From NCBI RefSeq assembly GCF_013389595.1, contig NZ_CP058306.1:3100001-3164000 (forward strand): a DNA stretch of 64,000 nucleotides, read 5' to 3'. Both the position numbers and the translations under genes were made by a program. Below are positions 56,200 through 60,131 of the stretch, one piece after another (position 1 is the first letter of the stretch; each line of letters opens with the position of its first letter). Source of the DNA: Flavobacterium sp. I3-2. GTDB lineage: Bacteria; Bacteroidota; Bacteroidia; Flavobacteriales; Flavobacteriaceae. The notes below the pieces were generated by a model. The model made no database searches. It saw only the letters and a list, made by a program, of their open reading frames with translations, and was not told the origin of the DNA.

Positions 56200-58422
56200 A
56201 TGTTAAAAAACCTAAAAAAAATCTTACTATTTTTCATTTTAATTAATTCTTTTAACGTAACAAACGCTCAAGAAACATTAATAAACATTGAGAAAGAATA
56301 TAAGTCAAAAACTTATTTATCTCCAGATTATTATGAGGTAGTGGCAAAATATGCACAGGCATTGTCAATAAATAATAAAAAAGAACAATCAATTACTGTA
56401 CTTATAAAAAATATTGAATTAGCAAAAAAAAATAATGATCATGGGAATACTTCATATTTATACTCTATTCTTTCGATTGAATATTTTTTAGGTAAAGAAA
56501 ATTCTAAATCAGATTTGAGTTTAAAAGAAGCAGAAAAGCATTCAAAAAAAACAAATAGATATGAAATAAAAGGTTTTTATTATTATGTAAATGCTTGGAT
56601 TTTTTTGAGAAAACAGAAAAAAGTTGAAGCTGTAAATAACTACATCAATGCGATCAATAATTATAATTTAGCTGCAGAATCAAAGAAAATTTACAAACTA
56701 AAATCAACGATTTACATTGAATTATCACGAATCTATGGCGATTGGAAAGATGAAGATTTACAAGAAAAATATAGCTTAAAAAGTTTAGAATACGCATTAA
56801 AACAAGATAACAAAAACGAGATTTTCTCTTCTTATATGGCTGTTGGTCATTTATATGATAATAAATTTATCGAATCTAAAAATCTTAAATATCGCGATTT
56901 AGTTGAATTTTACTACCTAAAAGCCTTTGATTTATTTCAAAAAAATGAAATGCTATATATTTCTGATTTAGCTTATGTTTCTATAAATATTGCAAATCTA
57001 TATTTAGCTTATTATCCAGAGAATTATACTGAAAAAGTATTAAAATACACAAATATCGCAAAAGACATTGCTACAGAACAAAATGAATACAATTATATAG
57101 CCAATGCAAATTTAAATTTAGGTGAAATTGCAAAAAGAAAAGGAAATTATAACGAAGCAAAAACATATTATTTACAAGCATTAAATCAAATTCAGAATAG
57201 TTTTAAAAAAGATACAAATGTTGAATTAAATATTCTTCAAAAATTAATTGATCTTGAAGAATTAAACAAAAATTATTTTGAAGTAAGTAAATATCAAAAA
57301 GAATATTTAAAAATCTATATCGAAGTATTCGATTACCAACAACATGAAGCTAGTAAACGAATTGAAGCTGAATTTGAAAAAAAATTACAAGAAAAAGAAT
57401 TAGAAAAATTACAATTAATTACTGACAAAAAAGAACAACAAATTCAACTATTAAATTTTCAGAATCTTGAAAGAGAAACACAATATAAAAATTTGAAATT
57501 AATAGAAGAAAATCAATCAAAAAAATTAACCTTATCAGAACTAATTACTCAAAAAAAGCAACAAGAGTTAAAATTATTAGAACTTGAAACTCAAGCAAAA
57601 TCAAAAGAAGTAATCAGATTTCGAGAAAAGCTTGCTTACAGAGAACAAACCAATAATTTTTATGCGCTGATCATTTTATCAATTATTCTTATTGTCATCT
57701 TATTATTATTTCTTTTAAGACAAAGAACAAAAAGAATGCTTGAAAAAGAAAAATCGTACAAACTTGCCATTGAAAAAGAGAAACAACATGCCAAAATTTC
57801 GGCACTTACATCTTTACTTGATGGTCAAGAAAAAGAAAGAGAACGACTTGCAAGAGATTTACACGATGGTCTCGGTGGATTATTATCGGCTACAAAACTT
57901 CAACTTTCAGATTTGTTAAATAAAAAAAATGAAATTAAAAACGAAGAATTAAAAGTTATTAGTGATCATATCGATTTTGCAATTAATAAACTAAGAAAAG
58001 TATCTCATAATCTCATGCCTGATTTAATAATCAAATATGGATTAGAAGTTGCTTTAAAGGAATTTGCTATTCGAATGAAAAATAACAATCTCGAAATACA
58101 TGTACATTTCTTGAGCTACACAAATACACTAGAAACAGAAAAACAACTTTTTGTATATAGAATTATTCAAGAATTAGTCAACAATGCAATAAAACACGCT
58201 CAATCCAAACACATAATTATACAACTTGTCGAAGAAACAAACTTATATCAAGTAACAGTTGAAGATGATGGAATAGGATTTGAAGTAAACAATCTCGAAT
58301 TTAAAAATTCGGCCGGATTCTTAAATATACAATCCAGAATACATTTTTTGAAAGGAACCTTTGAAGTTCATTCAGAAAAAAATCTTGGAACAAGTTTTGA
58401 GTTTAATTTCCCTAAAAAATAA
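56200..58422 (+). CDS. TPR sensor histidine kinase (HisKA_3 type)
   Basis: This 740-residue kinase has a signal peptide (ending TNAQ, residue 24), a periplasmic array of tetratricopeptide repeats (for example IANANLNLGEIAKRKGNYNE), a coiled coil, and one membrane helix (about 488-508). The kinase is of the HisKA_3/NarX group, with His555 in LARDLHDGLGG, and a HATPase domain with IIQELVNNAIKHA and VEDDGIGFEV. The response-regulator gene begins 3 nt after its stop, so the two form a cognate pair. The periplasmic TPR array implies sensing through protein contact rather than a small ligand. Confidence 0.93.
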   Translation: MLKNLKKILLFFILINSFNVTNAQETLINIEKEYKSKTYLSPDYYEVVAKYAQALSINNKKEQSITVLIKNIELAKKNNDHGNTSYLYSILSIEYFLGKENSKSDLSLKEAEKHSKKTNRYEIKGFYYYVNAWIFLRKQKKVEAVNNYINAINNYNLAAESKKIYKLKSTIYIELSRIYGDWKDEDLQEKYSLKSLEYALKQDNKNEIFSSYMAVGHLYDNKFIESKNLKYRDLVEFYYLKAFDLFQKNEMLYISDLAYVSINIANLYLAYYPENYTEKVLKYTNIAKDIATEQNEYNYIANANLNLGEIAKRKGNYNEAKTYYLQALNQIQNSFKKDTNVELNILQKLIDLEELNKNYFEVSKYQKEYLKIYIEVFDYQQHEASKRIEAEFEKKLQEKELEKLQLITDKKEQQIQLLNFQNLERETQYKNLKLIEENQSKKLTLSELITQKKQQELKLLELETQAKSKEVIRFREKLAYREQTNNFYALIILSIILIVILLLFLLRQRTKRMLEKEKSYKLAIEKEKQHAKISALTSLLDGQEKERERLARDLHDGLGGLLSATKLQLSDLLNKKNEIKNEELKVISDHIDFAINKLRKVSHNLMPDLIIKYGLEVALKEFAIRMKNNNLEIHVHFLSYTNTLETEKQLFVYRIIQELVNNAIKHAQSKHIIIQLVEETNLYQVTVEDDGIGFEVNNLEFKNSAGFLNIQSRIHFLKGTFEVHSEKNLGTSFEFNFPKK

Positions 58423-58425
58423 AAT

Positions 58426-59055
58426 ATGATAAAGATTGCTATTACGGATGATCATCCTTTATTATTAGAAGGATTAAAAAATATACTAAATACTAGAAAA
58501 TCAGTTAAAGTTACCGAATGTTATTCAAGCGCAAAAGAACTTTTAGAAGGATTACCTAACGCTGAAATCGATGTACTTTTGTTAGATATTAATTTAGAAG
58601 ATGCAAATAGTATTGAAATATTAAGTAAAATAACAAAAATCAAGCCCGAACTATACATTATTATGTTAAGTGTTCATAACGAATTAGCAGTTATTAATAG
58701 TTGCATCAGTCAAGGTGCTTTTGGATATATTCAGAAAAACGCTTCTATTGATGAAATTCTTATTGGAATAGAAACAGTTTATAAAGGTGAAAAATTCTTT
58801 TGTACGCAAACTCAAAAGAAAATGAAAATCAAAGAAAATGATCAACCCAATACAGTTCCGAAGTTGACACGTCGAGAAAAAGAAATACTAATCGAAGCTG
58901 CATTTGGATTAACAACAAATCAAATTGCGGAAAAATTATTCATTAGTCCACATACTGTAGAAAGTCATCGAAAAAATTTGATTGAAAAATTCCAAACAAG
59001 TAATTTAAGTTCAGCAATTAAACTTGCTTTCGAATACGGATTAATTGGGGTTTAA
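58426..59055 (+). CDS. NarL/LuxR family response regulator
   Basis: This 209-residue regulator has a receiver domain (DD at 8-9, phospho-acceptor Asp54 in LLLDINLEDA, Lys in YIQKNAS) and a LuxR-type helix-turn-helix (LTRREKEILIEAAFGLTTNQ, then IAEKLFISPHTVESHRKNLI). It should bind DNA as a dimer after phosphorylation by the TPR kinase encoded 3 nt upstream. The first operator-like element of the tandem RNA units begins 7 nt after its stop codon, which makes it the obvious candidate activator for them. No terminator separates it from the first unit. Confidence 0.94.
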   Translation: MIKIAITDDHPLLLEGLKNILNTRKSVKVTECYSSAKELLEGLPNAEIDVLLLDINLEDANSIEILSKITKIKPELYIIMLSVHNELAVINSCISQGAFGYIQKNASIDEILIGIETVYKGEKFFCTQTQKKMKIKENDQPNTVPKLTRREKEILIEAAFGLTTNQIAEKLFISPHTVESHRKNLIEKFQTSNLSSAIKLAFEYGLIGV

Positions 59056-59061
59056 TGAAAA

Positions 59062-59107
59062 TAGCTATTTTCAGGGATTTAAAAACAACTTCAAGTTAAT
59101 ATATTTG
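59062..59107 (+). promoter_or_regulatory. Activator site and promoter of small RNA unit A
   Basis: The element TAGCTATTTTCAGGGATT (59062-59079) is followed, 29 nt after its CAG, by TTTG of the -7 element TATATTTG (59100-59107). The expected start is about 59113, so the dyad centre is near -43, typical of a class II activator. No -33 TTG is present, which suggests the promoter needs the activator. Confidence 0.65.
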
Positions 59108-59112
59108 AAGTT

Positions 59113-59209
59113 AAAGGAAATCATATTTATTTGATCAATTATTTAGTAAAGAGATCTTAAACCAAACGGTTTAAAATTAAAAGAAAGTGCATTTACACTT
59201 TCTTTTTTT
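59113..59209 (+). ncRNA. Tandem small RNA unit A (candidate)
   Basis: About 97 nt, with an internal hairpin TTAAACC-AAAC-GGTTTAA (59157-59174) and a terminator hairpin GAAAGTG/CACTTTC (59183-59202) followed by seven T. It has no convincing ORF. It could also act as the terminator of the kinase/regulator operon, which would explain this unit alone but not the three that follow. It is the most diverged of the four. Confidence 0.5.
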
Positions 59210-59275
59210 AATCTTAAAATTTTAGAAATAAACTCAAAATCAATCTGAATAAAAATCTTCAAATTAATTAGAATA

Positions 59276-59321
59276 TGGCTGTTTTCAGTGATGTTTTATA
59301 AAACTAGCTTAACTAAATTTG
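59276..59321 (+). promoter_or_regulatory. Activator site and promoter of small RNA unit B
   Basis: TGGCTGTTTTCAGTGATG (59276-59293) contains the dyad CTG-TTTT-CAG. The -7 element TAAATTTG (59314-59321) has its TTTG exactly 29 nt after CAG, the same as unit A. Confidence 0.65.
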
Positions 59322-59326
59322 AAATA

Positions 59327-59456
59327 ATAAATATAGCTTTACAACCCTATATTATTTTAAAAAAAATTGAAAAAGATAGTAATTGTTATTTAATTGAGAC
59401 TTAAATAAACTCTAATTTACTTGAAGGAAGTGTGATAAAACACTTCCTTTTTTATT
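59327..59456 (+). ncRNA. Tandem small RNA unit B (candidate)
   Basis: About 130 nt. A 5' stem AATATAG/CTATATT (59330-59353) lies near the start, and a GAGACTTAA stretch (59396-59404) is a degenerate form of the GAGCTTAA element of units C and D. The terminator stem AAGGAAGTG/CACTTCCTT (59424-59449) is followed by a T-rich tail. No ORF longer than a few codons. Confidence 0.6.
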
Positions 59457-59484
59457 TTTAATAATTTCTTAAATAATTGAAATT

Positions 59485-59531
59485 TAGCTGAATTCAGGGA
59501 TTAAAAACACCAAAAATTCTTATGATATTTG
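59485..59531 (+). promoter_or_regulatory. Activator site and promoter of small RNA unit C
   Basis: TAGCTGAATTCAGGGATT (59485-59502) contains a perfect CTGAATTCAG dyad. A -7-like GATATTTG (59524-59531) has TTTG 30 nt after CAG. Confidence 0.65.
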
Positions 59532-59536
59532 TATCA

Positions 59537-59662
59537 ACAAAAAGATTAATAAAATCTTTAGTTAAGAAAAATTAGAAAAAGAAAAAAAGTTGTTTTTTAA
59601 ATGGAGCTTAACCTACCTCTTAAGCATAATAAGGAAGTGAAATAATTCACTTCCTTTTTTAT
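59537..59662 (+). ncRNA. Tandem small RNA unit C (candidate)
   Basis: About 126 nt. It has a 5' stem AAAGATT/AATCTTT (59541-59559). It also has a hairpin with stem GCTTAA/TTAAGC (59606-59625) presenting the loop CCTACCTC. The terminator stem AAGGAAGTGA/TCACTTCCTT (59631-59656) runs into a T run. A 14-codon frame from ATG 59601 (MELNLPLKHNKEVK) overlaps the terminator, so a peptide is less likely than a structured RNA. Confidence 0.65.
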
Positions 59663-59831
59663 TTTTTGATCTTTTTATTTTATAAATTAAAATATAAAAA
59701 CATTTTGATTATCCTTTTTACCCTCAAGTATTCATTTAGCAAATAAAATGTTAAAATTTACTAATTTAATTAATAACACCCACGACTTTATCCTTAAAAA
59801 ATGAATAATTAATAGAAAATTAATTTAAAAT
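59663..59831. other. Spacer between units C and D
   Basis: About 170 AT-rich bases with no ORF, promoter or hairpin that I can support. Confidence 0.4.
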
Positions 59832-59878
59832 TAGCTGAAAATAGGGATTTTTTATCGTACAATAATGAACGTAATTTG
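59832..59878 (+). promoter_or_regulatory. Activator site and promoter of small RNA unit D
   Basis: TAGCTGAAAATAGGGATT (59832-59849) is followed by a -7-like GTAATTTG (59871-59878), TTTG 30 nt after the TAG half-site, as in unit C. Both C and D continue TATCAACAAAA just after the -7 element. Confidence 0.65.
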
Positions 59879-59883
59879 TATCA

Positions 59884-60020
59884 ACAAAAGGAGCTAATTT
59901 TTTTACTTCTATGTTACAAAAAAAATACTATGAAAAAGAAAACTTAATCGTTTTCGCAAAATGGAGCTTAACCTACCTCTTAAGCAAAAAGGAAGTGTAA
60001 AAAATCACTTCCTTTTTTTA
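59884..60020 (+). ncRNA. Tandem small RNA unit D (candidate)
   Basis: About 137 nt. It shares with unit C an exact 25-nt block (59961-59985), including stem GCTTAA/TTAAGC and loop CCTACCTC. The terminator stem GGAAGTG/CACTTCC (59991-60012) is followed by seven T. A 29-codon frame from ATG 59911 (MLQKKYYEKENLIVFAKWSL, then TYLLSKKEV) is open here, but the matching frame in unit C has no ATG, so coding is not conserved. Confidence 0.65.
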
Positions 60021-60131
60021 TTTACACAAAGCTTAAAAAACCTTCAGATAATTTATAAACTATAATACATTTACTTTTACAACTTAAATTAGAAAAACTT
60101 ATTGTAAACAGATTAGTCAATACATTAATGT

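Follow-up and report, generated by a model that had tools for sequence, protein, structure and literature searches.

The DNA analyzed here, a 64-kb stretch of Flavobacterium sp. I3-2 (the window), contains a two-component system (TCS) and, directly behind it, four units, U1 to U4, which appear to encode members of a dispersed family of small RNAs (sRNAs) under the control of the response regulator (RR) of that system. Each unit is preceded by a candidate RR box and a TTTG element. The features are listed below; domain scores are from Pfam, and R1 is a held-out promoter model described further on.

56200..58422, + strand: sensor histidine kinase; open reading frame (ORF) with TPR repeats (TPR_12, 6.7e-8), HisKA_3 (2e-10), and HATPase_c (6.4e-12).
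58426..59055, + strand: NarL/LuxR-type RR, proposed activator of the units; ORF with Response_reg (4.3e-22) and GerE (1.4e-18).
59061..59078, + strand: U1 RR box; 11/14 dyad positions, 25 nt before the TTTG at 59104-59107; R1 E = 0.0045.
59108..59209, + strand: U1, predicted small RNA unit; terminator 59179-59206; counterpart behind the RR in Paenimyroides tangerinum.
59275..59292, + strand: U2 RR box; 11/14, 25 nt before the TTTG at 59318-59321; weak by R1 (E = 2.0).
59322..59453, + strand: U2, predicted small RNA unit; terminator 59423-59450; lacks the UAACCWACC seed; counterpart elsewhere in P. tangerinum.
59484..59501, + strand: U3 RR box; 11/14, 26 nt before the TTTG at 59528-59531; top R1 match of the genome (E = 6.5e-5).
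59532..59660, + strand: U3, predicted small RNA unit, type B; terminator 59631-59656; its counterpart is the P. tangerinum unit on contig C39.
59602..59625, + strand: type-B core of U3, UGGAGCUUAACCUACCUCUUAAGC; hairpin GCUUAA/UUAAGC with the C-rich loop CCUACCUC, candidate seed.
59831..59848, + strand: U4 RR box; 10/14, 26 nt before the TTTG at 59875-59878; R1 E = 0.053, partial match.
59879..60019, + strand: U4, predicted small RNA unit, type B; terminator 59986-60017; its counterpart is a P. tangerinum array copy.
59962..59985, + strand: type-B core of U4, same sequence as the U3 core; loop unpaired probability 1.00.

The unit limits run from the first base 3' of TTTG to the end of the T-run, and the 5' ends are predicted only. 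The RR combines a receiver with a LuxR-type helix-turn-helix, the architecture of the NarL/FixJ type by Pfam. A preliminary description of this DNA had placed four + strand units behind the two-component system, with upstream elements at 59062, 59276, 59485, and 59832, and we find them at these positions, with 1, 3, 0, and 1 mismatches to TAGCTGNNNNCAGGGATT, respectively. It had put the start of U1 near 59113. Its distances from element to TTTG (29, 29, 30, and 30 nt) were correct in pattern, U1 and U2 being one shorter, but not in value: they are 24, 24, 25, and 25 nt from the end of the 18-nt element, and 25, 25, 26, and 26 nt when the box is centered on the dyad. The terminator hairpin ascribed to each unit was recovered, with four on the + strand (one per unit) and one on the − strand, against 0.1 in all in shuffled sequences. 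The unit stretches also fold better than their shuffles (z = −4.10, −3.05, −3.87, and −4.52, terminator hairpins included). The absence of a conserved ORF stands insofar as none of at least 60 amino acids lies within 59056-60131, but not for a short ATG frame present in most type-B units, which is discussed below.

The next genes after the units lie on the − strand; thus, by sequence, the units appear to be stand-alone transcription units. With its box beginning six bases beyond the RR stop codon and its terminator being the first behind the RR, U1 may also serve to end and terminate the RR mRNA. The four units had been described as one family, but they are not equal copies: U3 and U4 have a 31-nt block in common (97%), U2 is 70% similar to U3 along 90 nt but has another core, and U1 differs. 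The suggested comparison with Rfam left the units without a match above the gathering score: only one distant tRNA exceeded the threshold in the window, the units gave sub-threshold, chance-level matches, and nine related loci gave sub-threshold matches only.

The relation between box and regulator was examined at the loci of RR orthologues. The set comprises the best 80 of 115 related loci (57-89% identity), the window not being among the 80. A box consensus, ATCCCTGNNNNCAGGGAT, was drawn by eye from such loci, and sites were scored as matches out of 14. With a score of at least 10/14 and TTTG at exactly 26 nt, 92 matches were found in 64 of the 80 loci, comprising 31 distinct box strings; when gaps of 25 and 26 nt were both allowed, 102 sites occurred in 68 loci (683 kb). 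The same 25/26 search yielded one site in 21 loci of paralogous RRs (75 kb), none in 31 other loci (91 kb), of which 28 belong to further genomes in the genus and three to this one, and 4, 3, and 4 sites in three Markov shuffles of the 80 loci. On both strands of the window, exactly four places were found, and these are U1-U4. The string TAGCTGNNNNCAGGGATT with up to two mismatches occurs at six places in the whole genome (U1, U3, U4, and three unrelated ones), as does its reversed control.

R1 is a sequence-only model of box, spacer, and TTTG, trained on 26 sites, all of them from other genomes. Its four best matches in the 3.55-Mb genome were U3, U5 (8.5e-5), a site upstream of a small gene at 3,026,107 (6.3e-4), and U1. 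U5 is an unlinked fifth unit of this genome, located at 2,581,544. The following ranks were a place inside a gene (0.008), a doubtful place (0.022), and the partial match at U4. Of eight non-unit R1 loci that were read in this genome, two are box-like places that recur in P. tangerinum: the small gene at rank 3, whose orthologue has a box of the same kind (L156/L209), and a lipoprotein gene preceded by an R1 site at 838,035 (0.48), whose orthologue is also boxed (L164/L216). The rest are doubtful or intragenic. The match sets contained 52 entries at E 10 in this genome and 35 at E 0.3 in five relatives, of which 17 loci and four further stretches were read. The P. tangerinum lipoprotein gene is present with its upstream box on two contigs, C45 and C71 (L216 and L217), which is either a duplicate or an assembly effect.

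Away from the units, the RR box appears mostly to precede genes for envelope-type proteins. Among 22 RR-box genes chosen from R1 matches, 14 products have a signal peptide or lipobox and three more are membrane proteins (N-termini read by eye), and Pfam revealed no common function for ten RR-box genes. The box that directly follows the RR in Sphingobacterium runs into protein genes (L078, L112, L114-L116). The operator outlines a regulon for a TCS that is found from Sphingobacterium to Chryseobacterium and Myroides, and for which we know of no function.

Some further sites were encountered at these loci. A strong RR box is found in front of the orthologous kinase gene of Chryseobacterium indologenes (L281, 1501-1550), which suggests autoregulation in that genus; the window kinase has no box of at least 7/14 with TTTG just upstream. 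In Myroides odoratus, an RR box precedes the gene of a SUFU-domain protein (L286; Pfam 6.2e-43). Chryseobacterium loci also contain a conserved site, ATGGCTGAAAACAGGGAT, and its reverse complement, in many of them with TTTG at a gap of 16, 21, or 52 nt; the site's own gap-26 position is often not TTTG.

The family is dispersed and is not limited to the tandem array behind the RR. P. tangerinum (G457) has ten units, nine of them with a recognizable box. One lies behind the RR and one corresponds to U5; a U2-type and a type-B unit form a pair at another place, five type-B units form an array, and the last is a further type-B unit. Aligned with their P. tangerinum counterparts, U1-U5 are identical at 81/94, 106/122, 121/128, 117/135, and 227/250 ungapped positions (86-95%; 120, 137, 140, 144, and 265 alignment columns), and each alignment scores higher than all of its 50 shuffles. 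Of the four units of Lapin bin50 (G366), two follow the RR and two lie at other places, one of the latter being seedless; both units of Lapin bin68 (G536) are of type B, and one is boxed. Behind the RR of Empedobacter, E. falsenii has one unit and E. tilapiae and E. sedimenti have two each; the second unit in the latter two species lies 114-118 nt upstream of an ORF, has no terminator by a strict test, and is possibly a leader. Faecalibacter has one unit, which is not behind the RR. Units with TAACCWAY follow the RR in five of the 80 orthologue loci.

A DNA search with U3-U4 in 398 genomes of the genus at E 0.001 returned matches in 168; among those listed, all but the matches of this genome and G366 were judged to be AT-rich noise. 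Another draw of 396 genomes, which may overlap with the first, was searched at 1e-7 and gave matches in this genome, G475, and G536, those of G475 sitting at the contig places of P. tangerinum. In the RR tree, this genome, P. tangerinum, and two Lapin metagenome-assembled genomes form one clade (98/95), and Empedobacter is grouped with Myroides sp. WP-1 and NP-2 (99/94); long branches (L092, L065, L016) make the deep placements unsure. Since two RR clades have units, a common origin and an independent recruitment of the units are both possible.

The dispersed copies bear on the possibility that the units are real RR-controlled transcripts that act locally or not at all, U1 being the 3' end of the RR mRNA and the rest decaying duplicates. 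The position of the U1 box and terminator would fit this explanation, as would the lack of the seed in U1 and U2. However, the same core or motif recurs in unlinked units of four genomes, and most of these units have recognizable boxes. In addition, P. tangerinum units at other places match U2 and U3 at 87% and 95% of the ungapped positions, respectively. We regard a purely local role, or none, as improbable.

In the alignment of ten type-B units, just one of the 24 core positions varies, whereas the 5' parts diverge; an eleventh unit has a change at the last core base. The core is predicted to fold as the GCUUAA/UUAAGC hairpin, with its C-rich loop exposed (mean unpaired probability of 0.90 in U3). 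Its pairs are invariant in the alignment, so pair counts are no test of the hairpin. U5, which represents type A, carries UAACCAACCACUUA, differing from the type-B sequence UAACCUACCUCUUA at two places. It could also be argued that the type-B units are small protein genes, with an ATG in the conserved block starting a peptide of about 13 codons, MELNLPLKQKKEV. The frame, MELNLPLK... (59601-59645 of the window in U3), runs through the core in 11 of the 12 type-B units examined and is closed inside the unit in nine of the 12. Nevertheless, it remains unclosed within U4 and one array copy, the ATG is lost in another copy, and types A and C have no such frame (read by eye). Moreover, synonymous changes are absent from the core codons of the ten aligned units, whereas the flanks diverge, which points to a constraint on the RNA. 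Coding of a peptide by these units is therefore very improbable.

A candidate partner of the seed is located beside glyS. The seed complement GGTWGGTTA occurs at 50 sites in this genome, 47 of which were mapped. One of them falls in the space that separates glyS, identified by the sequence of its protein, from a bacilliredoxin-like gene, and it is directly followed by a terminator. Here, AUAAGUGGUUGGUUAGG is a perfect 17-nt complement of the U5 stretch CCUAACCAACCACUUAU; the chance expectation for such a complement, by composition and on both strands, is 0.0002. The surrounding RNA-like element of about 100 nt is predicted to form two hairpins and a terminator, leaving the anti-seed open between them (mean unpaired probability of 0.76 vs 0.37 overall in the predicted fold). 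The 17-nt complement is preceded by TATATTTG and followed by a terminator in two species, and P. tangerinum has the same anti-seed stretch at the same place between the same two genes. These features suggest that the glyS-side element is a sponge for U5, a kind of RNA that the preliminary description had not foreseen.

Pairing of the seeds with the anti-seed was compared with 500 shuffles, using seed stretches that were chosen by eye. Values as low were obtained in 4 shuffles for U3/U4, 1 for P. tangerinum U1, 0 for the G366 unit, 0 for the first Empedobacter unit, and 8 for Faecalibacter; for U5 the number was 0, by selection. Type B pairs with the anti-seed through two U-U mismatches. Whole-RNA duplex energies were rejected as a pairing test because they are not seed-specific: two U5 rows fell below all 200 shuffles, and the other seven were within range.

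The sponge relation could also run in the reverse direction. The RR-activated units would then themselves be sponges that titrate the G-rich glyS-side RNA, which would be the true mRNA regulator, and the RR would relieve repression. Consistent with such an arrangement, the unit bodies differ while a short C-rich motif is shared and multiplied, the glyS-side RNA exposes AUAAGUGGUUGGUUA between its hairpins, and no good box precedes it (8/14 and 7/14 at best in the two species). Conversely, the whole 24-nt type-B core, including the stem, is nearly invariant, which exceeds the need of a bare sponge site; U1 and U2 lack the motif; and the pairing of type B is interrupted by the two mismatches. 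We consider this reversal unlikely and favor the units as the regulators, with the glyS-side RNA as their antagonist.

Two other places with a common motif deserve mention. A second intergenic, terminator-ended RNA-like stretch contains GGTTGGTTA (L253, ~880-1110, G000:C1:1247532-1249540; L331 in P. tangerinum); about 140 nt of it are nearly identical in both species, and it has no Rfam family match. An inverted repeat around GGTTGGTTA lies between the putative atpE and atpF and is also conserved in both species (L254/L329).

Two candidate mRNA targets were rejected. A secreted-protein gene (L242), the best coding candidate near a start with a duplex of −19.6, was not convincing, and a site in a pirin-like gene (L260; L348 in P. 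tangerinum) is explained by protein conservation. Profiles of RNA chaperones and related proteins gave no match in this genome for Hfq (PF17209), RRM_1 (PF00076), or CsrA (PF02599), while the same searches were positive in 5, 2 (including a Bacteroides), and 3 of 14 control genomes, respectively. Pairing would therefore need no known chaperone of these kinds, or would use another.

Several results weigh against the proposed regulator-sRNA relation. On the promoter side, the box consensus came partly from the 80 loci later counted, and these loci are redundant, mainly Chryseobacterium, and not independent. At 9/14 the contrast shrinks, with 123 sites in 75 of the 80 loci, five in the 21 paralogue loci, and three in the 31 other loci. 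When TTTG is not required, the enrichment of the box is slight (554 sites in 683 kb, 44 in 75 kb, and 31 in 91 kb). Gaps of 16, 21, and 52 nt gave 32, 30, and 36 matches, the remaining gaps giving 1-10. We had taken these matches for gap-26 sites in other registers, which was wrong for most of them, as only 7, 4, and 8 coincide; the commonest strings at these gaps represent a different conserved site in its two orientations. R1 scores U4 weakly and did not recover U2, at E 0.02 it missed the type-B units of Lapin bin68, and only one of its 21 sites in eight genomes of other lineages is unit-like (Faecalibacter, with a variant motif). Another of these 21 sites (L292) has TAACCAAT within an ORF.

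On the RNA side, U1 and U2 of this genome lack the seed common to U3, U4, and U5, and their pairing with the anti-seed is no better than chance (112 and 456 of 500 shuffles as low); the second Empedobacter unit is weak (34). The G366 counterpart of U5 (L189) is seedless, and only 1 of 15 pairs is doubly changed in the type-B alignment. The glyS-side element was seen in two close species, where its flanks are also 80-84% identical. GGTWGGTTA is not enriched, with 50 sites vs 92 of the reversed control here and 59 vs 112 in P. tangerinum; few of the 47 mapped sites are near starts, and they form no target set, no whole-genome target scan having been made. Lastly, the conservation of units beside homologous kinase and regulator genes, proposed as a check in the preliminary description, was found in the five orthologue loci mentioned above, while the other 75 have no unit within 1 kb behind the RR. 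The earlier proposal that the units are sRNAs activated by the adjacent NarL-type RR nevertheless appears to be the best reading, in view of the recurrence of the box near RR orthologues, the R1 ranking, and the conservation of the units. It has to be qualified, since members of the family also lie outside the tandem, the seed is missing from U1 and U2, and most RR loci have no unit within 1 kb behind the RR.

We propose, with a probability of roughly 0.68, that U1-U4 belong to an sRNA family that is activated by the RR, acts by base pairing through a C-rich seed, and is counteracted by a G-rich sponge. The phosphorylated NarL-type RR, encoded just upstream, would switch on dispersed sRNA genes including the four units. 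It would bind the dyad ATCCCTG-N4-CAGGGAT, centered about 42-45 bp upstream of the start point, and activate a promoter with the element TAnnTTTG, which we take to be the Bacteroidota -7 element. The RNAs would end at strong intrinsic terminators. Type B (U3 and U4) and type A (U5) may pair in trans through the seed UAACC(A/U)ACC(A/U)CUUA, without an Hfq or RRM chaperone. The G-rich RNA would form a 17-nt duplex with U5 and a weaker one with type B, acting as a sponge or mutual antagonist. Given that the other RR boxes are found mainly in front of genes whose products are secreted proteins, lipoproteins, or membrane proteins, the probable role of the RNAs is to provide the RR with a negative arm on mRNAs of envelope or secreted proteins.

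A broader interpretation is more tentative, and we would place it somewhat below even odds: a Bacteroidota riboregulatory circuit free of Hfq, RRM, and CsrA, in which an envelope TCS has recruited multiplying C-rich sRNAs that are checked by a dedicated G-rich sponge. If this is true, an sRNA family (five members here, ten in P. tangerinum) gives the RR a post-transcriptional negative arm with a titration threshold. The TCS, conserved in Flavobacteriia and Sphingobacteriia, would have envelope proteins as its ancestral regulon, with recruitment of the sRNAs in some lineages.

The Qrr RNAs of Vibrio, with which the units had been compared, require sigma-54/LuxO and Hfq. The comparison is apt for the logic, with sibling sRNAs, a proposed single phospho-regulator, one set beside the regulator gene, and strong terminators. 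It does not extend to membership, as the regulator here is of the NarL type (Response_reg and GerE), the promoter has a TTTG element with a dyad at a fixed distance, Hfq has no match, and no sequence kinship is shown for the units. In the GacA-RsmX/Y/Z system, a NarL/FixJ-type RR turns on sRNAs by way of an upstream dyad, as is proposed here, and the Rsm RNAs titrate CsrA/RsmA through GGA motifs. That system differs in that no CsrA match is found here. We found no system of the present form described in open-licence PubMed Central papers.

Four further systems can be compared. In Bacillus subtilis, the C-rich seeds of RoxS and FsrA are opposed by RosA with exposed G-rich stretches, the pairing of RosA being experimentally shown (PMC8216469). 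Here too, C-rich seeds face a stand-alone G-rich element, but in a different phylum, with different sequences and with predicted pairing. In Caulobacter crescentus, the CrfA sponge acts against the sibling sRNAs SisA-D and was found among Hfq-associated RNA pairs (PMC12559287); the arrangement of one sponge against siblings is similar, whereas this genome has no Hfq match. Rfp18 of Flavobacterium psychrophilum is likewise a conserved Flavobacteriaceae sRNA, with protease targets (PMC9723704), but it is a single one; it was compared by description.

The closest setting is that of FopS/GibS in Bacteroides thetaiotaomicron, multicopy paralogous sRNAs of which FopS pair with the translation start region of an mRNA (PMC11697453). 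The FopS RNAs are about 65-70 nt long, with a 5' seed, canonical sigma-ABfr promoters, and possibly an unknown activator, and they are bound by the RRM protein RbpB (PMC11697453). The present units are also multicopy paralogous sRNA-like genes in Bacteroidota. By the published description of FopS, they differ in that an activator and a box can be proposed, that the C-rich seed sits closer to the 3' end, and that the genome has no RRM_1 match. How sRNAs are controlled and act in Bacteroidota without Hfq is poorly known, and the activator of FopS is unknown in the part of the source considered (PMC11697453). In the present system, the sequence itself points to a candidate activator with its operator, to the sibling RNAs, and to a likely antagonist.

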